From a virus, in the IMG/VR virus record IMGVR_UViG_3300025308_000343, positions 1-37,854 of that record: a stretch of 37,854 nt of DNA. One strand, given 5' to 3'. Within the stretch, counting starts at the first letter, position 1, and each line of letters opens with the position of its first letter. Positions 691 through 13,481 of the stretch are shown here, piece after piece. The position numbers and the translations under genes are program-made. The notes below the pieces were generated by a model that searched no databases, was not told the DNA's origin, and worked only from the letters and a program-made list of their open reading frames with translations.

Positions 691-728
691 CTAACTCAAT
701 CAAACGCAACATAACGGAAGGTTAGGCG

Positions 729-953
729 ATGGCATCAGGTTTGTCCAAAGCAAAAAAGGTCAAGACGCTGGCCGAAGCGCGGGCGGATTTTCACCGCTCG
801 GGAAAGAGCGTAATTTCCTGGGCAAATGAGCGCGGTTTTAGTGTCGCCCTGGTCTATATGGTGATGGCCGGAAAGCGCCCCGGTTTGCGCGGCCAATCGC
901 ACAAGATTGCCGTGTCGCTCGGGATCAAAGACGGTGTGATCGAGGAGGGGTGA
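729..953 (+). CDS. BcepMu gp16-family DNA-binding protein
   Basis: A 74-residue protein whose central segment (FHRSGKSVISWANERGF ... LVYMVMAGKRPGLRGQSHKIAVSLGI) matches the pattern I know for the BcepMu gp16 family, a small helix-turn-helix protein upstream of Mu-like transposases. It occupies the place of Mu Ner, a repressor of early transcription. The start is supported by GGAAGG seven bases upstream of the ATG. It is the first gene behind the early promoter. The family recognition is from memory; the regulatory role is inferred from position. Confidence 0.75.
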   Translation: MASGLSKAKKVKTLAEARADFHRSGKSVISWANERGFSVALVYMVMAGKRPGLRGQSHKIAVSLGIKDGVIEEG

Positions 954-954
954 A

Positions 955-1335
955 ATGGGTCGCACAAATACAGTTGATCTGCTGCCGTCGATTGTTCGTA
1001 AAGAGATCGACGAACGATTGATGGCCAACGGTTTTAGCGATTACCTTGGCCTGGAGCAGGAGCTGCGCGGCCGTGGCTACAGCAAGGTCAGCAAGAGCGC
1101 GTTGCACCGTTACGGCTTGGCTTTGAAGCGCCGTATCAAGGTGGCGCAAGCCACAGCACAACTGCAGGCAGCGGGTATCGATGCCGAAATGGCGGCTGAG
1201 TTGAGTGGCGATGCTACGCTGGTGGTGGTCATCGACCGTCGCAATGGCCGGGCGCGCCTGATTTCGCTGCCGATGCCGGCGGCGACGGTGATTGGGCAGA
1301 TCAAACGACTGAGAATGGATCATGAAAAAGATTGA
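955..1335 (+). CDS. Short DUF3486-like (small terminase N-domain) protein
   Basis: A 126-residue protein that resembles the first half of the gp27-type small terminase encoded at 15834. Both share an LP...R start, an FS.Y..LE..LRG.G segment, then SKSA(L/I)HR(Y/H)G and a basic RR stretch. The C-terminal region differs. GAGGAGGGG precedes the ATG and the gene overlaps the transposase start by 14 bases. Its place in the early operon makes a packaging role unlikely; a DNA-binding or regulatory role is more plausible but not shown. Confidence 0.65.
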   Translation: MGRTNTVDLLPSIVRKEIDERLMANGFSDYLGLEQELRGRGYSKVSKSALHRYGLALKRRIKVAQATAQLQAAGIDAEMAAELSGDATLVVVIDRRNGRARLISLPMPAATVIGQIKRLRMDHEKD

Positions 1336-3379
1336 TCCGATCAAGGGCTGGTATAGCGCCCAGGAACTGGCCGGATTGCCCGGTTTGCCGGGAACCGAGC
1401 GCGGCGTTAAATGGCGTGCGGAAAAAAATTTATGGGCGATGCGCTCTAAAGAGCGCGGCAAGGGCGGCGAATACGCCCTGCGCTCACTCCCCGCCGAAAC
1501 CCAAGCCCATATCGCCTCGCTGGCCCACGACCTGGTCGCCCATTCACCGGCCACCGCGATGGTCACGGTCGACGCGACAAAATCCCCGAAAACCAAGGCC
1601 AAAACCACCGTCGCGCTGCCTTCCGGCGCCGTGGCGATCCGTGGCCAGGTGCGCAAGATCAAGGATGAAAAGGCGCTCGACGACAAGGAACGCTGCTACC
1701 GCGATGCGGCGCTGGTGTTGTGCCGTGCCGTCGAGGGAGCGATGTCTGCTGCCGACTGCTCACTGAACAAGGCCTGTGACGAGCTGGCCAACCGGCTGGT
1801 TTGCGGCGACGCCCGGCCGGAACTGCTCGATGCCGCTGCCGTGACCTACGTCAAGCCGCGCAAGGGCGAGGTGCTGGGCGGGGTGAGTGCCCAGGCCAGC
1901 CGCCTGTACAAAATGATGGGGTTTTTCGAGAAAGGTCGTCTGGCTGGCGATGTCGGGCTGTTTCTGGTGCCCGGAAAGCGTGAAAAAGAAGGCCACAACC
2001 CCATTCACATTAACGCTTTTCTGCGCTTTTTCTGCCTGCCGACCCGGCCGCCAGTGATCGAAGCGTGGCGCGCCATGGATGCCTGGCTGGTCGAGCGCGG
2101 ACTGCCGCAGATTGGCTATAAAACCGTCTGCCGCATCGAAAACGAACTGCCGGTCACCGTTAAATATCGCGGCCGGGTAACGGGCAGCGAATGGCGCGGG
2201 CTCAAGACCTACATCGACCGCGATGTTTCCATGTTCCACAGCAACGATATCTGGGTCGGCGACGGTCACAGCTTCAAGGCCAAGGTGCAGCACCCGATCC
2301 ACGGCCAGCCTTTTACGCCGGAAGTCACCTTCATTCGCGACTGGGTCAGCCGCAAGATCGTCGGCTGGTCTGTGTCGCTGGCGGAATCAACCGTGGCCGT
2401 GTCGGATGCTTTCCGGCATGCCCAGATGGTCACCCGTGCCCGGCCGCTGGTCTATTACTCCGACAACGGTTCTGGCCAGACCGGCAAGATGATCGACTGC
2501 CCCATCGCCGGCACGCTCGCCCGGCAGGGCATTGCCCACGAAACCGGCATCCCCGGCAATCCGCAGGGGCGCGGCATCATCGAAAGCCTGTGGATGGCGA
2601 CGCTGATCCCGCTGGCCCGCGAATACCCGACCTGCACCTGGCGCGGCGCCGACGAAAACGCCACCAACAAGATGCTCAAGGCACTCAACCGCAAAGACCA
2701 TGGCGGCGTGCAGATACCGAGCTTTCGCCAGCTGCTCGACGACGTTGAACGCTGCGTCAATGACTACAACCTGCACCACGAACACAGCGCCCTGGACGGC
2801 CAGACGCCCGAAGACGCCTATCAAGCACGAATGGACCGCGACTCCATCGTCCTCGGCCCGAACGACGCCGAAATCCACGCCCTGTGGATGCCCGAGGTGG
2901 TCCGCAAGCCGACGCGCGGGCTGGTCAGCCTGTTCGGCAACGTCTACGCCAAGCGTGACCTGGTTGATCTGCTGCCCGAAGGCGTCAAGGTCCGCGTCCG
3001 CTACGACCTGCACAACCCGGACAAGGTCTGGCTGCTGACGCTCGACGGCGTATTTCTCGGCGAAGCCGCCTGGAACGGCCACCGCGTGGCGGCCTTCCCG
3101 GTGCCCGAAATGGAGCGTCTGCGCGGCATGCGCGCCGCCGGCAAGATCAAGCGCGGCGAAGAAATCATCGCCGAAGCCCAGGCCGAGCTGGACAACGTCT
3201 ATGACCTGACGCCGGCCGTGCCGATGCCCGTGCCGATGCCGGACTACATGCCGGTACCCGTTGAAGAACCTGAAGAAGAAGCCCCGGCGATGACCCACGA
3301 AGAAATGGTCATGTTGTTCTACGGGGAAAAAGACAAAGACGAGGGAGAGGGTCCGTCGTCTGAGGTGGCGGCCGGTTAG
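1322..3379 (+). CDS. muA: Mu-type transposase A (DDE recombinase)
   Basis: A 685-residue transposase that performs strand transfer during replicative transposition and integration. The N-terminal region (about 8-65, WYSAQELAGLPGLPGTERGVKWRA) is the Mu-type winged DNA-binding domain. The rve-like core carries the DDE triad: D314 in WVGDGHS, D381 in YYSDNGSG and E421 in GRGIIESLW. The first two acidic residues are 67 apart, as in MuA. A beta-barrel-like domain follows (about 520-610), then a Pro/Glu-rich tail with repeated PMPVPMP that probably contacts protein B. Length is close to MuA (663 aa). It is intact, so the element may be mobile. Confidence 0.95.
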   Translation: MKKIDPIKGWYSAQELAGLPGLPGTERGVKWRAEKNLWAMRSKERGKGGEYALRSLPAETQAHIASLAHDLVAHSPATAMVTVDATKSPKTKAKTTVALPSGAVAIRGQVRKIKDEKALDDKERCYRDAALVLCRAVEGAMSAADCSLNKACDELANRLVCGDARPELLDAAAVTYVKPRKGEVLGGVSAQASRLYKMMGFFEKGRLAGDVGLFLVPGKREKEGHNPIHINAFLRFFCLPTRPPVIEAWRAMDAWLVERGLPQIGYKTVCRIENELPVTVKYRGRVTGSEWRGLKTYIDRDVSMFHSNDIWVGDGHSFKAKVQHPIHGQPFTPEVTFIRDWVSRKIVGWSVSLAESTVAVSDAFRHAQMVTRARPLVYYSDNGSGQTGKMIDCPIAGTLARQGIAHETGIPGNPQGRGIIESLWMATLIPLAREYPTCTWRGADENATNKMLKALNRKDHGGVQIPSFRQLLDDVERCVNDYNLHHEHSALDGQTPEDAYQARMDRDSIVLGPNDAEIHALWMPEVVRKPTRGLVSLFGNVYAKRDLVDLLPEGVKVRVRYDLHNPDKVWLLTLDGVFLGEAAWNGHRVAAFPVPEMERLRGMRAAGKIKRGEEIIAEAQAELDNVYDLTPAVPMPVPMPDYMPVPVEEPEEEAPAMTHEEMVMLFYGEKDKDEGEGPSSEVAAG

Positions 3380-7941: not shown

Positions 7942-8864
7942 TGTGGTTCCATAACCTCCAGCTCTACCGCCTTCCCACCCCCTGGGCGATCACTGCCGAG
8001 CAGCTGCGCGAGCAGCTCGCCCGTGGCCCGTTTTTCAGCTGCCCCAGCAGTCAGCCGCAGGCCCGTGGCTGGTCGGCCCCGCGCAAAGACGGCGAGCTGC
8101 TGCACGCCATGAACGGCGCCTGGATGATCCGCCTCGATGTCGAAACCCGCCTGCTGCCGTCCTCGGTCATCAACGCCGAAGTCCGCGCCCAGGCGGAAAA
8201 GCTCGAAGAAACTCAGGGCTACGGCTGCGGGCGCAAGCAGCTCAAGGAATTGCGGGAAAGGGTCACCAGCGAACTCATGCCGCGCGCCTTCCCCGAGCGC
8301 CGCGCCACCCACGTCTGGATCGACCCGAAAGCCGGCTGGTTCTGCGTCGATGCCGGCACGCCGGGCAAGGCTGACCAGGTCATCGAGCATCTGCGCCATT
8401 GCCTCGACGACTTCCCGCTGACCAAGCTGCACACCCAGCTTTCGCCGATGGCAGCCATGGCCGACTGGCTGGCCGGCGGCGAGGCGCCGGACGGCTTCAC
8501 CATCGACCGCGACTGCAACCTCAAGGCGGCCGGCGAAGAGAAGTCGCAAGTCAGCTACAAGCGCTGCCCGCTCGATGCCGACAAAGAGATCGGCGGCGAG
8601 ATCAAGGCTCACCTGGCTAGCGGCAAGCTGCCGACCAGCCTGGCGCTCACCTGGGACGACCGCATTTCGTTTGTGCTCGATGAGAAGCTGACCATCAAGC
8701 GCCTGGCCTTCCTCGACCTGCTCAGGGAAGAAGCCGAGCAGAACGCCGAAACCGCCGACGACCAGTTCGCCGCCGACTTCGCGCTGATGACCGGCGAGCT
8801 GTCCCGTTTTCTGCCGGCGCTGGTCAAGGCGCTGGGTGGGGAGGTGTGCGATGGCGATCTATAA
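7941..8864 (+). CDS. rdgC: Recombination-associated protein RdgC
   Basis: A 307-residue RdgC homologue, near the E. coli length (303 aa). The start MWFHNLQLYRLP and the segments RDGELLHAMNG-like, LPSSVINAEV, KQLKELRERVTSELMPRAF, VWIDPKAGWFCVDAG and LSPMAAMADWLAGGEAP are family hallmarks. RdgC forms a ring dimer around dsDNA and limits RecA filament loading. It is here in a phage early operon two genes after gam, so both ends and interior of phage DNA could be shielded from host recombination. Start is the ATG overlapping the previous TGA. Confidence 0.93.
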   Translation: MWFHNLQLYRLPTPWAITAEQLREQLARGPFFSCPSSQPQARGWSAPRKDGELLHAMNGAWMIRLDVETRLLPSSVINAEVRAQAEKLEETQGYGCGRKQLKELRERVTSELMPRAFPERRATHVWIDPKAGWFCVDAGTPGKADQVIEHLRHCLDDFPLTKLHTQLSPMAAMADWLAGGEAPDGFTIDRDCNLKAAGEEKSQVSYKRCPLDADKEIGGEIKAHLASGKLPTSLALTWDDRISFVLDEKLTIKRLAFLDLLREEAEQNAETADDQFAADFALMTGELSRFLPALVKALGGEVCDGDL

Positions 8865-9237
8865 CTTCAAAAAGCAATTTGCTGCCGCTGTCCGCTCCGG
8901 CGCTAAGCCACACACCATTCGCGCCCATGGCAAACGCCCGCCGCCGAAGGTCGGCGACTGGGCCTACTGCTACACAGGCTTGCGCACGCGTGACGTCTGC
9001 CGGCTCGGCGCCTTCCGCATCATCCACGTCACGCAGATATCGATCTCATCCGGCAGCCGCAGCGTGTCGATACCGGGCAATGGAATCTGGTATCGCCTGA
9101 CTGACGACGAGATCGAGCAACTGGCGCGCGCCGATGGCTTCGCTTCGGCAGACGAGTTCTTTGGCTTCTTCGCCAAGGAACACGGCGGCACGCTGAGTGG
9201 CTTTCTCATCGAGTGGAACCCGAAGGAGTCGCAATGA
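8851..9237 (+). CDS. ASCH/PUA-like domain protein
   Basis: A 128-residue protein with the ASCH pattern: FKKQFAAAVRSGAKPHTIR near the N-terminus, PPKVGDWAYCYTGLRTRDVCRLG, a strand IIHVTQISI, and C-terminal DGFASADEFFGFF ... GFLIEWNP. ASCH domains are beta-barrel folds related to PUA and bind RNA or modified nucleosides; some are nucleases or deacylases. GGGGAGG precedes the ATG, which lies 14 bases inside rdgC. A nucleotide-binding role is inferred. Confidence 0.7.
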   Translation: MAIYNFKKQFAAAVRSGAKPHTIRAHGKRPPPKVGDWAYCYTGLRTRDVCRLGAFRIIHVTQISISSGSRSVSIPGNGIWYRLTDDEIEQLARADGFASADEFFGFFAKEHGGTLSGFLIEWNPKESQ

Positions 9238-9527
9238 TCCGCTATCAGATCAAGGTCAACGTATCCGGCAGCTGGGCGAATCTTTGCAGCTGCCCGGCGC
9301 AACGCCTGGAGGCTGTCCGGGAAGCCTGCGAACGGCTCGCTTTTGCCCTCGACCACGGGATTATTTTCAAGGTCATTGATTGCGCCAGCAATACGGTTTC
9401 CGTCCTCTACAACAGCCGCCCGAAGGCGGGTGAGCCGCACGGCTGGCATGCGCCGCGCCAGATCGTCGACAACCCCGTGCAGGCAGGCCTTGACCGCACA
9501 ACCTCCGGCTGGATTGGACAGCTATGA
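9234..9527 (+). CDS. Hypothetical early protein (97 aa)
   Basis: A 97-residue protein (MIRYQIKVNVSGSWANLCSC ...) coupled by ATGA overlaps at both ends. A beta-rich N-terminus is followed by a helix and a Gly/Pro-rich tail. I do not recognise it. Confidence 0.6.
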   Translation: MIRYQIKVNVSGSWANLCSCPAQRLEAVREACERLAFALDHGIIFKVIDCASNTVSVLYNSRPKAGEPHGWHAPRQIVDNPVQAGLDRTTSGWIGQL

Positions 9528-9703
9528 ACCCCGGCCAACTCATCCCCACCGACGAGGCCCTCAAGGTGCTGCTCAAGCAATACCGCAACGGACCGCCCTT
9601 GTGCCAGGCGCAGCTCGACTGCCTGGTGCAGCACGGCATTCTCGACACCGCCAACGGCGCGTACTGGACCACCAGCCGCGCCGCCTCCCTGCTGCCGGGG
9701 TAA
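9524..9703 (+). CDS. Small hypothetical protein (59 aa)
   Basis: A 59-residue frame starting MNPGQLIPTDEALKVLLKQY, with a helix-turn-helix-like middle (PPLCQAQLDCLVQHGILDTANGAYWTT). It starts at an ATGA overlap and ends at TAA 9701-9703. The pattern resembles a minimal winged helix like those upstream. Function unknown. Confidence 0.55.
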   Translation: MNPGQLIPTDEALKVLLKQYRNGPPLCQAQLDCLVQHGILDTANGAYWTTSRAASLLPG

Positions 9704-9706
9704 GCC

Positions 9707-9802
9707 ATGGAAAAGCCCAAAGACAACGTGCTCGACCTCGTTTTCATGCCCGTATTCATCTTCTTCTGCCTGCTCGGAAAGTGGCTGGAGATCGACGAAT
9801 GA
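9707..9802 (+). CDS. Tiny single-span membrane peptide (31 aa)
   Basis: A 31-residue frame with one hydrophobic stretch (LVFMPVFIFFCLLGKW). It starts four bases after the previous stop. Its stop overlaps an ATG (9799) in the HU frame. Operon fit supports it, but the small size leaves doubt. Confidence 0.4.
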   Translation: MEKPKDNVLDLVFMPVFIFFCLLGKWLEIDE

Positions 9803-9852
9803 AACACCGCCACATCACCTTTTTCTCAACCCTCCGAAAGGATAGCCACACC

Positions 9853-10128
9853 ATGAACCAATCTGAACTGATCATTAAAACCGCCCAAATCTCCGGCGTC
9901 TCCAAGAAGGATGTCGAGCACGTCCTCAAGACGGCTGGCGACGTCATCACCGCCGCACTGATCGAGGAGGGCGAAGCGGTGCTGCCCTTGCTCGGCAAAC
10001 TCGGCGTCGTCCAGAAGGCTGCTCGCACTGGCCGCAACCCGAAGACCGGCGAAGCCATCCAGATCCCGGCCAAGAAGGTACCGCACTTCTCGGCATCGAA
10101 GGCGCTCAAGGATGCTGTCGCCAGCTAA
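9853..10128 (+). CDS. HU/IHF-type DNA-binding protein
   Basis: A 91-residue HU-family protein, the usual size. The N-terminal helices (MNQSELIIKTAQISGVSKKD) and the signature GRNPKTGEAIQIPAKKVPHFSASKALKDAV with the DNA-intercalating arm are clear. Mu transposition needs host HU to assemble the transpososome, so a phage copy could replace it. I chose the ATG at 9853 (AAAGGA upstream) rather than the in-frame ATG at 9799, which would add 18 atypical residues. Confidence 0.92.
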   Translation: MNQSELIIKTAQISGVSKKDVEHVLKTAGDVITAALIEEGEAVLPLLGKLGVVQKAARTGRNPKTGEAIQIPAKKVPHFSASKALKDAVAS

Positions 10129-10140
10129 GACCATCGCTTC

Positions 10141-10161
10141 AAGCCCGTTAATCGCGGGCTT
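10141..10161 (+). terminator. Hairpin behind HU gene
   Basis: AAGCCCG and CGGGCTT form a 7-bp stem with a 7-base loop just after the HU stop. The T-run (GGTTTTT) lies about 10 bases further on, so termination may be partial, allowing downstream middle genes to be read. Confidence 0.45.
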
Positions 10162-10192
10162 CTTGAGATGGTTTTTAACGCAAAGGAAGACG

Positions 10193-10423
10193 ATGGCCCT
10201 CGACTGGAAACCCCACTTCATCCTGCCGACCGACCGGCCGGCCACGGTGCTGGTCGCCTACGCCCCGGAGCTGGGTGTCGACAACGGCTACGTCGGCCGC
10301 ATGTACGAAGTCCGCCTCGGCCGCATCCGCTGCGAACAAACCGGCCGTTCCCCGCGGCCGCCCTATTGGTGGTGCTACGAACACGAAGTACTCGCCGGAA
10401 TCCCTGGAGTGAAACAGCCATGA
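10193..10423 (+). CDS. Hypothetical protein (76 aa)
   Basis: A 76-residue protein (MALDWKPHFILPTDRPATVL ...) with a beta-rich pattern and C-terminal PPYWWCYEHEVLAGIP. AAAGGAAG lies upstream of ATG and it overlaps the next gene as ATGA. No family recognised; short Trp-rich proteins like this are common in phage early regions. Confidence 0.6.
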   Translation: MALDWKPHFILPTDRPATVLVAYAPELGVDNGYVGRMYEVRLGRIRCEQTGRSPRPPYWWCYEHEVLAGIPGVKQP

Positions 10424-10593
10424 GCCAAGACGCCTGGACGCAACTCAACCTGGCCGCCAAGCGCGCCGCCTTCCCGCTGCGCGCGCCGCGCGCTCAGACG
10501 CTGGCCTGGTGGCCCGTGCATGTCTTTGCCGCTGCCGTCAATGGCTACCACGAAGCCTGCCTGGCCGTGCTGGCGCCGAAAGGTCGGCCATGA
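10420..10593 (+). CDS. Small hypothetical protein (57 aa)
   Basis: A 57-residue basic, Ala-rich protein (MSQDAWTQLNLAAKRAAFPL ...), coupled to both neighbours by ATGA overlaps. No family recognised. Confidence 0.55.
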   Translation: MSQDAWTQLNLAAKRAAFPLRAPRAQTLAWWPVHVFAAAVNGYHEACLAVLAPKGRP

Positions 10594-11009
10594 GCACCAT
10601 CGGCCTGCGCAAGGCCGCCCGCATCAAGGCCATCCACGCCGCCTGCCGCGCCGCCGGTATCGACGATGCCGAGCGCCAGCGCATCCAGCGCGAAATCACC
10701 GGCAAGGCCAGCCTCAAGGACATGGACTATGCCGAAGTCAGCCGCGTCCTCACCCACCTCAACAAGGCCGCCGGCTACCACGACTATGAAGGCAAGCCGA
10801 AAACCACCGACGGCGATCCGCAGCTGCAGAAGATCGAAGCCCTGCTCGCCGACATGAAGCTGCCCTGGGCCTACATCCACCGCTCGAAGTTCGGCCCGAC
10901 CATGGTCAAGAAGCTGACCGGCAAGGACCGCATCGAATGGGCCGACACCGTCGGCAAGCAGGCCGTCATCACCGCGCTGGTCAAGCGCCAGCAGAAACTC
11001 GGGGGTTAA
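10590..11009 (+). CDS. gemA: GemA-family protein (DUF1018)
   Basis: A 139-residue member of the Mu gp16/GemA family. Evidence: KAARIKAIHAACRAAGIDDAERQ at the N-terminus, the Gly/Lys TGKASLKDMDYAEVSRVLTHLNK segment, and MVKKLTGKDRIEWAD near the C-terminus, where family members have the conserved terminal motif. In Mu this early protein modulates host gene expression and DNA gyrase-related supercoiling. It lies directly ahead of mor, as in many Mu-like phages. Confidence 0.85.
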   Translation: MSTIGLRKAARIKAIHAACRAAGIDDAERQRIQREITGKASLKDMDYAEVSRVLTHLNKAAGYHDYEGKPKTTDGDPQLQKIEALLADMKLPWAYIHRSKFGPTMVKKLTGKDRIEWADTVGKQAVITALVKRQQKLGG

Positions 11010-11011
11010 GC

Positions 11012-11428
11012 ATGGCCCTGCCAAACACCATCCAGACCATCGTCAGCATCATCGGCCACGGCCCGACCATGTCCCTGGTCAGTGAATTTGGCGGCCGTGA
11101 TATCCGCTTTCCAGCCCGTCGCGATGGCGACAACTGGGAAGCCCTCGTCGAGATCGTCGGCGAAGCACATGCCAAGCGCCTATGCGAGCGCTTCAACGGC
11201 GACGAGGTCTATATCGCCCTGTGCGCCAACGCCGTCCGCCACGACCGCAACTGCCGCATGATCAAGCGCTACGACCAGCTGCTGCAGCAAGGCCACAGCA
11301 GCCGCGGCGCCGTCGGCATCCTGACGCAGGAATTCCGGCCAATCAGCAACCGCGCCGTCGAGAACATCATCAACAGCCCGGCACCAACGATGGCGCCGGA
11401 AATGGTGCAGCAGGGACAGTTGTTTTGA
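11012..11428 (+). CDS. mor: Mor-family middle transcription activator
   Basis: A 138-residue Mor/C-type activator. The region EFGGRDIRFPARRDGDNWEALVEIVG matches the beta-strand dimerisation linker (FGG...IP) and C-terminal SRGAVGILTQEFRPISNRAVENIIN is the helix-turn-helix. Mor binds the middle promoter and with RNA polymerase turns on C, or late genes directly when no C exists; no separate C gene is seen here. It starts two bases after the gemA stop. The first attC site begins five bases behind its stop. Confidence 0.8.
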   Translation: MALPNTIQTIVSIIGHGPTMSLVSEFGGRDIRFPARRDGDNWEALVEIVGEAHAKRLCERFNGDEVYIALCANAVRHDRNCRMIKRYDQLLQQGHSSRGAVGILTQEFRPISNRAVENIINSPAPTMAPEMVQQGQLF

Positions 11429-11432
11429 TGCC

Positions 11433-11504
11433 GCCCAACGTGAAAGCTCAGCCGACGGCAAAAAGCGCAGCTTTTTGACGGTCGGCTGGAGCGGAGTGTT
11501 AGGC
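11433..11504 (-). repeat. attC site 1 (integron recombination site)
   Basis: On the plus strand GCCCAAC (11433-11439) and GTTAGGC bound the site. Read on the minus strand it is GCCTAAC, 5-base spacer, inner arm GCTCCAGC, loop, inner arm GCTGAGC, 6-base spacer, GTTGGGC. The 5-prime inner arm carries one extra base, as in classical attC sites. The minus-strand outer box GCCTAAC contains the TAA stop of the gene at 11499-11816. It adjoins mor. Confidence 0.85.
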
Positions 11505-11816
11505 GGGATGTTTTGAGGAAACATGGGAGAACCGCCAGGAAAAAATGAAAAACGCAATTACCGAATAGAAAACAAGCAGAAAAATAGCCGTAGCAAGATA
11601 GGCGCTACCTGCATAGCCACAAACTTCGTGCCCATCGAGACAAGCCGTATTAGGGAAAATTTTCGACATGAAACTCGTGGGCCAAGAAAATGCCAGGTAA
11701 GCCGGAACAGTTAACCAACGAGGCGCTTGATTTGCAGCCAACAAACCGAATGCCAAAAGAGAGGCCAGCAAAAAAACCATTGAGACGCCAACGGATAAGA
11801 GAATTCGCGTCGCCAT
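11499..11816 (-). CDS. Cassette-encoded membrane protein (105 aa)
   Basis: A 105-residue integral membrane protein with hydrophobic segments at about 5-30 (ILLSVGVSMVFLLASLLAFG), 35-50 and 75-97 (LATAIFLLVFYSVIAFFIFS), and two cysteines in the central loop (ACLDGHEVCGY). It is the only gene in the cluster that runs with the attC orientation. Its ATG is seven bases after the outer box GTTAGGC of attC2, and its stop TAA lies inside the outer box of attC1, the textbook layout of an integron cassette gene. Low GC for the window. Function unknown. Confidence 0.75.
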   Translation of the reverse strand: MATRILLSVGVSMVFLLASLLAFGLLAANQAPRWLTVPAYLAFSWPTSFMSKIFPNTACLDGHEVCGYAGSAYLATAIFLLVFYSVIAFFIFSWRFSHVSSKHPA

Positions 11817-11823
11817 CGAATAT

Positions 11824-11886
11824 GCCTAACGCACTAGCTCAGGCGGGCGCCGCTTGCGGCGTGTCGCCTGGAGCGATGGGTTCGGC
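11824..11886 (-). repeat. attC site 2
   Basis: Plus-strand boxes GCCTAAC (11824-11830) and GTTCGGC (11880-11886). Inner arms CTCAGGCG and CGCCTGGAG pair with one extra G in the second, equal to an extra base in the 5-prime arm on the minus strand. The loop contains a further GCCGC/GCGGC stem. The outer box GTTAGGC on the minus strand complements the GCCTAAC of attC1, as expected for the two ends of one cassette. Confidence 0.85.
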
Positions 11887-11912
11887 GGCAGATTGAACGG
11901 AGGAGGGAAGAG

Positions 11913-12197
11913 ATGACCGATGAACAGAAAAAGCTTGTGCAGAGCGCGCTGTTTGATGCCGACCACTTGGCGATTTGCGCAGGTAATTTGCTGGCCGCAC
12001 TGAACCGGATGGCTGGCGCCATTGAGCGATGCGAGGTTGCAGACGGGGGTGATATTGGCGCCCCTGCGCGTGCAGAACTTGAGCTTGAGCAGGCGGAAGC
12101 CGATGTGTCTGAATACTGGCGCGCAATACAGAGTGCGACATACGAATACCAGAAACGTGCCAAACGGGCGCGGGCTGCATTGACGCCGAACGCCTGA
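11913..12197 (+). CDS. Cassette gene: hypothetical helical protein (94 aa)
   Basis: A 94-residue soluble, helical protein (MTDEQKKLVQSALFDADHLA ...) with long Glu/Ala-rich helices, possibly a coiled coil. GGAGGAGGG lies upstream of ATG. The last codons (TPNA) are encoded by the attC3 outer box and adjacent bases, so recombination there would change the C-terminus. The gene is antiparallel to the attC orientation. Function unknown. Confidence 0.65.
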   Translation: MTDEQKKLVQSALFDADHLAICAGNLLAALNRMAGAIERCEVADGGDIGAPARAELELEQAEADVSEYWRAIQSATYEYQKRAKRARAALTPNA

Positions 12198-12254
12198 GAT
12201 AACCGGAGCAACGCGGCTTTATCGCGGCGCGTCCGGTTGAACGATGGGTTCGGC
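12185..12254 (-). repeat. attC site 3
   Basis: Plus-strand boxes GCCGAAC (12185-12191) and GTTCGGC (12248-12254). On the minus strand: GCCGAAC, CCATC, GTTCAACC, loop, GGTTATC, TCAGGC, GTTCGGC. Spacers of 5 and 6 and arms of 8 and 7 match the classical pattern, with one mismatch in the arms. Confidence 0.85.
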
Positions 12255-12295
12255 GGCACTGGTTGATAAGCGATTTTTTACTGAAAGGAAACACC

Positions 12296-12673
12296 ATGAA
12301 CAAGATATTGGCTTTGATTTTTGCGGCAGCGGCAATCGCCGGATGCAGCGATGCGAATGTGGCCTCCTCGAATCTCTCAAAGGCGGCAGACAACTTCGAA
12401 CTGACTCGGCGCATCGTGTTTTACAACGGCATAACGGGCGAGTACATGCTGAGCATCGAGGGGTTGTGCTCAATTGGGAGCGCCACCGAAACCAAGGCTG
12501 TCGCCGTTACGTGCAAGACCGGGCCGAGCGAATACAAGAAGCATTTCCTCGGGCTGTCTGACAACGTGACGTATTTCGCCGAGCAGGTCACCGGAGCGCA
12601 GTCCAGCCCATACCAGTACCGGGTTGTTTTCAAGCCAGCCGCCATCGTGCCAGACATTGAGATACGGAAGTGA
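12296..12673 (+). CDS. Cassette gene: phage-type lipoprotein
   Basis: A 125-residue lipoprotein. The N-terminus MNKILALIFAAAAIAGC has a signal peptide with lipobox IAGC (Cys17). The mature part NLSKAADNFELTRRIVFYNGITGEYMLSIEGLCSIG ... YKKHFLGLSDNVTYFAEQ ... YRVVFKPAAIVPDIEI fits a lipoprotein family that I recall from many phages (beta-sandwich lipoprotein). Its role is not established; superinfection exclusion or host surface modification is plausible. Start at 12296 because GAAAGGA precedes it and it begins the signal peptide; the longer frame from 12263 does not. TGA abuts attC4. Confidence 0.8.
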   Translation: MNKILALIFAAAAIAGCSDANVASSNLSKAADNFELTRRIVFYNGITGEYMLSIEGLCSIGSATETKAVAVTCKTGPSEYKKHFLGLSDNVTYFAEQVTGAQSSPYQYRVVFKPAAIVPDIEIRK

Positions 12674-12674
12674 C

Positions 12675-12764
12675 GCCGAACGCTTGAAGTGAAAGGCGTC
12701 GGCGCTGTGCCTTCGCTACAACCAAAAGACTTATTACGCCGTCCTCTCGACTGATTGGTTCGAC
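12675..12764 (-). repeat. attC site 4
   Basis: Plus-strand boxes GCCGAAC (12675-12681) and GTTCGAC (12758-12764); the second departs by one base. Inner arms GTGAAAGG and CCTCTCGAC pair with one mismatch and the same extra G as the other sites. At 90 bases this is the longest site and the weakest match. Confidence 0.7.
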
Positions 12765-12786
12765 GTGATCGAAGAAAGGAAACAAC

Positions 12787-13032
12787 ATGAGCAAATGGAA
12801 AGCGCCTCTTCCGAAAAACAACCCGCCAGATGGCGTAACCCTCTTTGTAATCGCGGCCAAGAATCACTCAGGCGCACGAGCAGAATTGAGCGGAGAAATG
12901 AGCACAAAGAAAATGCAACTGATTTTCAAGCTCGCTCAGATGAGTGATTCCGAGGTTGATGCGGAATGTGAAAAAACGCCGACGCCGAACGCCAGCGGTA
13001 ACCAGACGGCCCGTCAGGGCCGGTCTGGTTGA
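12787..13032 (+). CDS. Cassette gene: hypothetical protein (81 aa)
   Basis: An 81-residue protein (MSKWKAPLPKNNPPDGVTLF ...). GAAAGGA lies upstream of ATG. The frame reads through most of attC5, so the C-terminal 20 or so residues (TPNASGNQTARQGRSG) are site-encoded. The body of about 62 residues looks like a genuine small protein. Antiparallel to the attC orientation. Function unknown. Confidence 0.55.
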   Translation: MSKWKAPLPKNNPPDGVTLFVIAAKNHSGARAELSGEMSTKKMQLIFKLAQMSDSEVDAECEKTPTPNASGNQTARQGRSG

Positions 13033-13046
13033 CCAACGGGTTCGGC
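12984..13046 (-). repeat. attC site 5
   Basis: Plus-strand boxes GCCGAAC (12984-12990) and GTTCGGC (13040-13046). Inner arms GGTAACCAGAC and GTCTGGTTGACC pair perfectly apart from one extra G, the clearest of the set. A loop stem of GGCCCG type lies inside. Confidence 0.88.
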
Positions 13047-13072
13047 GGCAATTTTTACGAGAGGAATAGAAA

Positions 13073-13345
13073 ATGAAAATCATCGAAATGAACGATTGCG
13101 ATTGGTGGATTGGCGAAAGCCTGGAAGCCTGTGTCAAGGACTACACGGAGCATTACGTCGACGACCCTGAATCAAGCGAGGATGCCCGCGAATTGAATGA
13201 TGACGAACTCGACCGCCTGACATTTGCTGTTACGGACGAGAACGAATGCAAGACCGGAGAAAAGCGGACCTTCAGAGAGCAGCTTGCGATTGAGGTTGCC
13301 GCTGGCGGCGAGTTTCCGCGCATGTTTGCGAGCACGGAATATTGA
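13073..13345 (+). CDS. Cassette gene: conserved hypothetical protein (90 aa)
   Basis: A 90-residue acidic protein, MKIIEMNDCDWWIGESLEAC with C-terminal FPRMFASTEY. I recall similar proteins in many proteobacterial and phage genomes, without known function. GAGAGGA precedes ATG and TGA directly abuts the attC6 box. It is antiparallel to the attC orientation, as are three other genes of the cluster. Confidence 0.7.
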   Translation: MKIIEMNDCDWWIGESLEACVKDYTEHYVDDPESSEDARELNDDELDRLTFAVTDENECKTGEKRTFREQLAIEVAAGGEFPRMFASTEY

Positions 13346-13346
13346 C

Positions 13347-13380
13347 GCCGAACGCCTTATAGACACCTAATTTGGTGTCT
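13347..13380 (-). repeat. Partial attC-like site 6 (array boundary)
   Basis: The box GCCGAAC (13347-13353) is followed by the inverted repeat AGACACC/GGTGTCT (13361-13380), which on the minus strand again shows one extra base (TAGTAGACACC against GGTGTCTATA). The second outer box is missing; ordinary phage-like sequence follows. This is either a truncated attC or the resident half of the insertion target. Confidence 0.65.
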
Positions 13381-13398
13381 ACTACGAAAACGACTCCC

Positions 13399-13436
13399 AC
13401 GGTCAACCCGAAAAAAAGCCGAAAATTGAAACCCCC
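13399..13436 (+). pseudogene. Relic of a winged-helix gene tail
   Basis: The 17 bases ACGGTCAACCCGAAAAA at 13399-13415 are identical to 6281-6297 inside the gene at 5828, and similarity continues downstream. The translations PTVNPKKKPKIETP and PTVNPKNEPKTEPP match. No open reading frame remains, so this is a vestige of a duplicated gene or a recombination scar. Confidence 0.5.
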
Positions 13437-13460
13437 AAGCCCGCCCAGTGCGGGCTTTTT
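13437..13460 (+). terminator. Rho-independent terminator
   Basis: AAGCCCGC, loop CCAGT, GCGGGCTT form a perfect 8-bp stem followed by a T-run. It ends the middle operon and cassette cluster before the lysis genes. Confidence 0.85.
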
Positions 13461-13481
13461 CTCGACCTCGTCAGTCGACTA

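Follow-up and report, generated by a model that had tools for sequence, protein, structure and literature searches.

Integron cassettes are already known from phages. According to the main text of Qi et al. (2023; PMC9892861), 10,705 named phage genomes contain integrons and 17 CALINs, and phage attCs recombine with attI1 in an IntI1-dependent manner. In the same text, TJE1 and PH101 are said to have cassettes that run in the typical direction. The DNA analysed here, hereafter the window, is a stretch of 37,854 bases from an IMG/VR virus record, which may be incomplete. Like the phage CALINs of that study, it holds an attC array without intI in a phage genome. Unlike them, it belongs to a Mu-like phage and carries genes antisense to attC, neither of which was found in the main text of that work.

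Other described systems each share part of this arrangement. The Shewanella prophage M16-3 (MZ568829) contains a complete integron and a CALIN, and, as in the window, an attI adjoins the CALIN within a prophage. However, M16-3 is P2-like (Peduoviridae), cryptic, and IntI-carrying, and its attI is of the Shewanella type; although the title of its source paper mentions Mu-like prophages, it was rejected as a Mu-like precedent because it is P2-like. Chromosomal integrons of Rhodocyclales, for example that of genome G003 (locus L232), share with the window their attC family, an attI motif, and a near-identical attC1, but they have intI and their genes run in attC sense. The integrons of Spirochaetota, in which intI is in reverse orientation (PMC9668308), likewise show an unusual relative orientation within the integron; by description, intI is reversed there, whereas the cassette genes are reversed here. 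In the open-access literature, a scope that leaves out preprints and subscription papers, no description was found of reversed phage cassettes, or of a Mu-like phage with an attI that has no intI nearby. The original prediction, made from the letters alone, had called this route seldom described for Mu-like phages. That is accurate for Mu-like phages in the open-access literature but less so for phages at large, given the CALINs published in 2023 and the abundance of attC arrays in IMG/VR contigs (at least 120 matches to an orientation-neutral pattern).

The explanation that we consider probable is that an integron platform that has lost its integrase resides in this phage, with its cassettes moved by a host IntI acting in trans. 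The evidence for and against it is given below.

An integrase-less array in a Mu-like phage

The window encodes a MuA-type DDE transposase (1322-3379; Pfam and PHROG family matches) and a mor-like late transcription activator (11015-11428, plus strand), for which the PHROG match is clear (PHROG 836, E 7e-25) and the Pfam Mor match weak (E 2e-4, just under the cut-off). A peptide-pattern search with Mor gave no matches. Family matches also reveal a lysozyme and a terminase (TerL). These genes, with transposase and activator in Mu-like order, mark the window as a Mu-like phage, as had been proposed. The array lies directly after mor, whose stop codon precedes the distal attC by a few bases, and is followed by a terminator-like hairpin (13436-13462, plus strand, read from sequence) and then by lysis genes. 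In relatives picked by TerL (73-82% identical), the post-mor slot holds a single ordinary accessory gene (L035, L037, L038) or none (L036) and is therefore an accessory-gene slot; an equivalent terminator-like element closes it in L035 and L037. No attC was found in this slot in the TerL relatives L035-L040, L069-L071, L108, and L130, nor was a near-identical relative with an empty slot found among them.

Five attC sites occupy the slot. Two covariance models were used: one built from the five window sites, and one built from 17 chromosomal attCs only, which had themselves been found with the first, such that their independence is one of sequence and not of search. The chromosomal model matches all five sites on the minus strand (E 4e-15 to 4e-8): attC1 at the distal end of the array (11433-11504, 68.7 bits), attC2 (11824-11886, 57.4 bits), attC3 (12185-12254, 56.8 bits), attC4 (12675-12764, 42.3 bits), and attC5 (12984-13046, 42.1 bits). 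Plus-strand matches in the window stay short of E 1. An attC cluster is defined by at least two sites matching such a model, and the five sites seen in the original prediction are genuine. The hairpin check that it had proposed gave DNA folding z-scores from -2.7 to -6.1 for four of them (-4.1/-4.5 for attC1, -2.8 for attC3, and -6.1/-5.4 for attC5). The long-looped attC4, possibly degenerate, folds no better than its shuffles (z about 0.2), and this weak site counts against our preferred explanation. Likewise, the complementarity that had been noted between outer boxes is exact in four of the five cassettes, the R boxes of cassette 4 (GTCGAAC / GTTCGGC) differing by one base.

The model built from the window sites detected attC arrays in five Rhodocyclales genomes, each of which contains related prophages and has an intI that exceeds the cut-off. 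Over 71 bp, attC1 shares 95.8% identity with a chromosomal attC (L446, 1761-1831) of G003, a Rhodocyclales genome whose prophage has the closest terminase in that genome collection (82%). Searches of Rfam with the window gave no match. A strict DNA pattern of the window attC was also sought in viral contigs, where all 33 matches look like chance by structure; one of them, in L011, falls in coding DNA.

The sixth site had been taken for a partial attC at 13347-13380. Read on the minus strand, it consists instead of TAGACACC-N6-GGTGTCTA-N5-C and then a G^TTCGGC box (13347-13381), and the truncated-attC reading was rejected on account of this motif and its fixed spacing. The phage sequence on the minus strand, AGTAGACACCAAATTAGGTGTCTATAAGGCGTTCGGC, has counterparts in two attI regions: that of G003 (L232), AGTAGACACCTGCATAGGTGTCTACTGAACGTTGGGC, which belongs to an intact integron, and that of G127 (L403), AATAGACACCGATTTCGGTGTCTATTAAACGTTAGAG, which lies beside two attCs and what reads in the sequence as an intI remnant. 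All three have equal length and spacing and agree pairwise at 26-27 of 37 bases. The 31-bp motif TAGACACC-N6-GGTGTCTA-N5-CGTT is absent elsewhere in 4.7 Mb of fetched loci, and a looser pattern occurs in six of 250 genomes of the order to which G003 belongs, with exact spacing only in G003 and G127. By this motif, the sixth site is an attI-type end and not a broken attC, although the motif is known from three examples, which weighs against the preferred explanation. A second array of G003 (L446, G003:C11:2566-2620) has at its end, on the minus strand, the sequence GTCTACTTCACGTTGGGC, which resembles the right half of the motif and is perhaps a decayed attI.

With the attI-type end at the right and attCs of minus polarity, the array forms a normal series from attI to distal end, in which cassette 5 is first and cassette 1 last. 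Across the 37,854 bases, neither TIGR02249 nor an IntI search by tblastn gave a match, and no intI is present around the hairpin at 13436-13462, where it would be expected; the lack of an integrase that had been noted is borne out for the record. If the record is incomplete, an intI may lie elsewhere in the phage, which counts against the preferred explanation. A complete integron has an intI adjoining its attI. The window carries a putative attI, identified by the motif common to the two chromosomal attI regions, and no intI. It is a CALIN in the sense of an attC cluster without a neighbouring integrase, with an attI-type end that exceeds the usual definition. The accessory slot behind mor thus contains an attI-type site and cassettes, and no intI.

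Palindromic elements between genes can also be transposon ends, REP-like elements, or terminators, and the strict pattern of these sites is absent elsewhere in phages. A mimic of attC from another such repeat family is nevertheless scarcely credible here, considering the covariance match to attCs that flank intI, the pairing of boxes between neighbouring cassettes, the attI-type end, and the whole-cassette indels of other phages described below.

Cassette genes and their polarity

The gene of cassette 1 (11499-11816, minus strand) encodes a predicted membrane protein of 105 amino acids without a family match; it has the classical orientation, with its stop codon inside the R'' box. The remaining genes lie on the plus strand, each preceded by a ribosome-binding site. 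Cassette 2 (11913-12197) encodes 94 amino acids without a family match, behind a GGAGG site; cassette 3 (12296-12673) a 125-residue protein with a lipoprotein-like N terminus; cassette 4 (12787-13032) 81 amino acids, reading into attC5; and the attI-proximal cassette 5 (13073-13345) 90 amino acids. The products of cassettes 3 (PF25682/PHROG 478, E 2e-51 and 4e-52) and 5 (PHROG 5459, E 1e-9) belong to phage families. PHROG 478, with about 340 named-phage records at the DNA level, carries the name recombination directionality factor, which looks doubtful in view of the lipoprotein-like start and the spread of the family through very different phages.

Because the attCs have minus polarity, genes 2-5 run antisense to their attCs, which leaves cassette 1 as the one classical cassette. 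One gene in five is therefore in attC sense, the orientation that is usual, although not strictly defining, for cassettes. Both this reversal and the attI end had been missed in the original prediction. The unreversed cassette 1 is a further point against the preferred explanation. Relatives of the reversed cassettes occur in other viruses: the gene of cassette 3 has an 81% identical homologue in a reversed cassette of viral contig L142, and homologues of the cassette 5 gene, 67-72% identical, lie in cassettes of the phage contigs L250, L261, L266, and L267, which have a portal-like gene downstream (read from sequence). In these four contigs, an attC 89% identical to attC2 adjoins the homologue of cassette 5, a different gene from its neighbour in the window.

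Polarity was surveyed more widely with the same covariance model and the same longest-ORF caller for chromosomal and viral arrays. The viral sample was drawn with an orientation-neutral pattern of attC-internal bases only, and near-duplicate segments were removed; earlier patterns, with flanks that favoured reversed cassettes, were replaced and kept apart from the counts reported here. In the 20 chromosomal loci, 81 genes were sense, 8 antisense, and 14 undecided, whereas the 55 loci of viral contigs gave 27, 104, and 44, respectively, a contrast (81:8 vs. 27:104) for which the Fisher p of 7e-27 overstates the case because the contigs are phylogenetically non-independent. Per-locus majorities, sense to antisense, are 19:1 for chromosomes and 6:40 for viruses, with 9 ties. 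Homology backs the gene calls, since the sense ORFs of viral segments (n = 132) have no PHROG match and one Pfam match (DUF2569), while 99 PHROGs were matched among the antisense ORFs (n = 125, including the five window genes). Among the 58 flanking ORFs are phage hallmarks, namely genes of several terminase families and those for portal, primase, polymerase, and tail proteins. Two further Mu-like prophages, L083 and L072, likewise have genes that lie on the strand opposite to attC-type sites. The back-to-front layout prevails in phages. It is not universal, as the chromosomal model places the TJE1 attCs on the gene strand and the main text of PMC9892861 describes TJE1 and PH101 as typically oriented. 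Two attC arrays on opposite strands were seen in L272 (220-2161, plus; 8641-12926, minus).

The outer boxes of these sites are symmetrical and both strands fold about equally well, such that the polarity could in principle be miscalled, with phage attCs using the other strand and their genes being ordinary sense cassettes. This is very unlikely. The model trained beside chromosomal intI gives the window sites 42-69 bits on the minus strand and has no plus-strand match that reaches E 1, and two checks make no use of its strand call. One is viral contig L331 (IMGVR_UViG_3300042939_000785), which has its own intI (698-1807, minus strand) and in which the attCs are directed away from intI while the cassette genes all run toward it, in agreement with the called polarity. 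The other is provided by natural breakpoints, which lie at the model's R' box.

L331 is a phage integron with intI and cassettes in one direction; its segment 698-4464 also includes, near 1847, a box resembling attI, then at least five cassettes and, behind these, a gene for a C5 DNA methyltransferase. IntI is encoded in four of 121 viral loci, within the fetched stretches: L331, L349, L327 (frame-shifted), and L344 (a fragment).

Cassette turnover and the proposed role of host IntI

The natural breakpoints come from the arrays of other phages. A 342-bp cassette is present in L266 and absent from L250, L261, and L267, with an overlap of exactly GTT. The attI-proximal end is empty in L266 and holds a 308-bp insert in L250 and a 594-bp insert in L261, and the pairs L281/L338 and L302/L305 provide two further cassette-sized indels. 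All five unique indels between near-identical phages break inside the G^TTRRRY box. Since these phages differ by whole cassettes with breaks in the GTT box, such arrays recombine in nature. All of these events come from other phages; none was seen in the phage of the window, and this, like the lack of a near-identical relative with an empty slot, weighs against the preferred explanation. At the indel CGAC[AAC]GCACT, the moving unit has a hairpin in front of its gene; the unit inserted in L266 is a hairpin followed by a gene, so the attC in front travels with the gene. A 615-bp indel that adjoins the true cassette indel of L302/L305 has a CC overlap and no GTT box and was left out of the cassette events.

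The proposal that the phage acquired its accessory genes by integron recombination is, as judged from sequence, well supported by the attC family match, the attI-type end, and the exact gain and loss of cassettes in related phage arrays. Passive capture, in which a piece of an old host chromosomal integron reached the phage through illegitimate recombination and has since become inert, would explain the chromosomal type and orientation of attC1 and cassette 1 and the degenerate appearance of attC4. We regard it as improbable, because cassettes 2-5 have phage-type polarity, two of their genes are members of phage families that also occur in cassettes of other phages, reversed genes are rare in chromosomal arrays (8 of 89 called), and other phage arrays turn over. 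The host-type cassette 1, at the distal end, can be read as the oldest, with the phage-type cassettes added later.

In the preferred explanation, that of cassettes moved by host IntI, the attI-type site stands at the downstream end of the post-mor slot with five cassettes behind it, and a host-encoded IntI acting in trans would insert and remove cassettes at G^TT boxes. New cassettes would enter at the attI-type end. As phage-type cassettes have their attC before the gene and antisense to it, and the attI ends a rightward operon, new genes would land in the direction of phage transcription. Each would bring its own ribosome-binding site, making a cassette promoter unnecessary, and the cassette genes would presumably be co-transcribed with the phage operon. 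Reversed polarity would thus suit an array with attI downstream, where the phage operon ends. We infer that the host is a Rhodocyclales bacterium and that its IntI moves the cassettes of this phage. For such movement, the likely enzyme is a host IntI: a search of host genomes for intI, suggested in the original prediction, placed it over the cut-off in 5 of 5 Rhodocyclales genomes with related prophages, compared with 49 of 120 order-level genomes, a small sample.

With the reversed layout found in many other viruses, these seem to run their own version of gene trading. We lean toward the broader view that diverse tailed phages share a pool of reversed cassettes, loaded via attI-type sites, and thereby trade counter-defence and accessory genes; loading would usually depend on host IntI in trans and occasionally on a phage-encoded IntI. 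Such a pool would represent a phage-adapted branch of integrons and not stray host cassettes. Viral cassette ORFs include Acb2/Tad1-hairpin, Lar restriction-alleviation, and NinX genes, as well as dATP/dGTP diphosphohydrolase, HNH, and DNA methyltransferase genes, and the DNA methyltransferases and the Acb2/Tad1-type and Lar-type genes link the counter-defence cargo of phages to the integron system. The shuffling of accessory genes that underlies phage mosaicism is usually ascribed to illegitimate or homologous recombination. A site-specific route for single cassettes, with a borrowed host integrase, would explain part of phage variation.

The preferred explanation makes two predictions. A relative with an empty slot should be continuous at both predicted boxes, joining ...TGATGCCGCCCAA to CGCCTTATAGACACC..., to read ...TTGATGCCGCCCAACGCCTTATAGACACC... 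in a relative of this phage. Reversed polarity should also make the recombinogenic attC strand the coding strand of the phage operon; in the window, the attC bottom strand is the plus strand. The contigs L250, L261, L266, and L267 represent three cassette states at the attI-proximal end and offer a good system for watching turnover.
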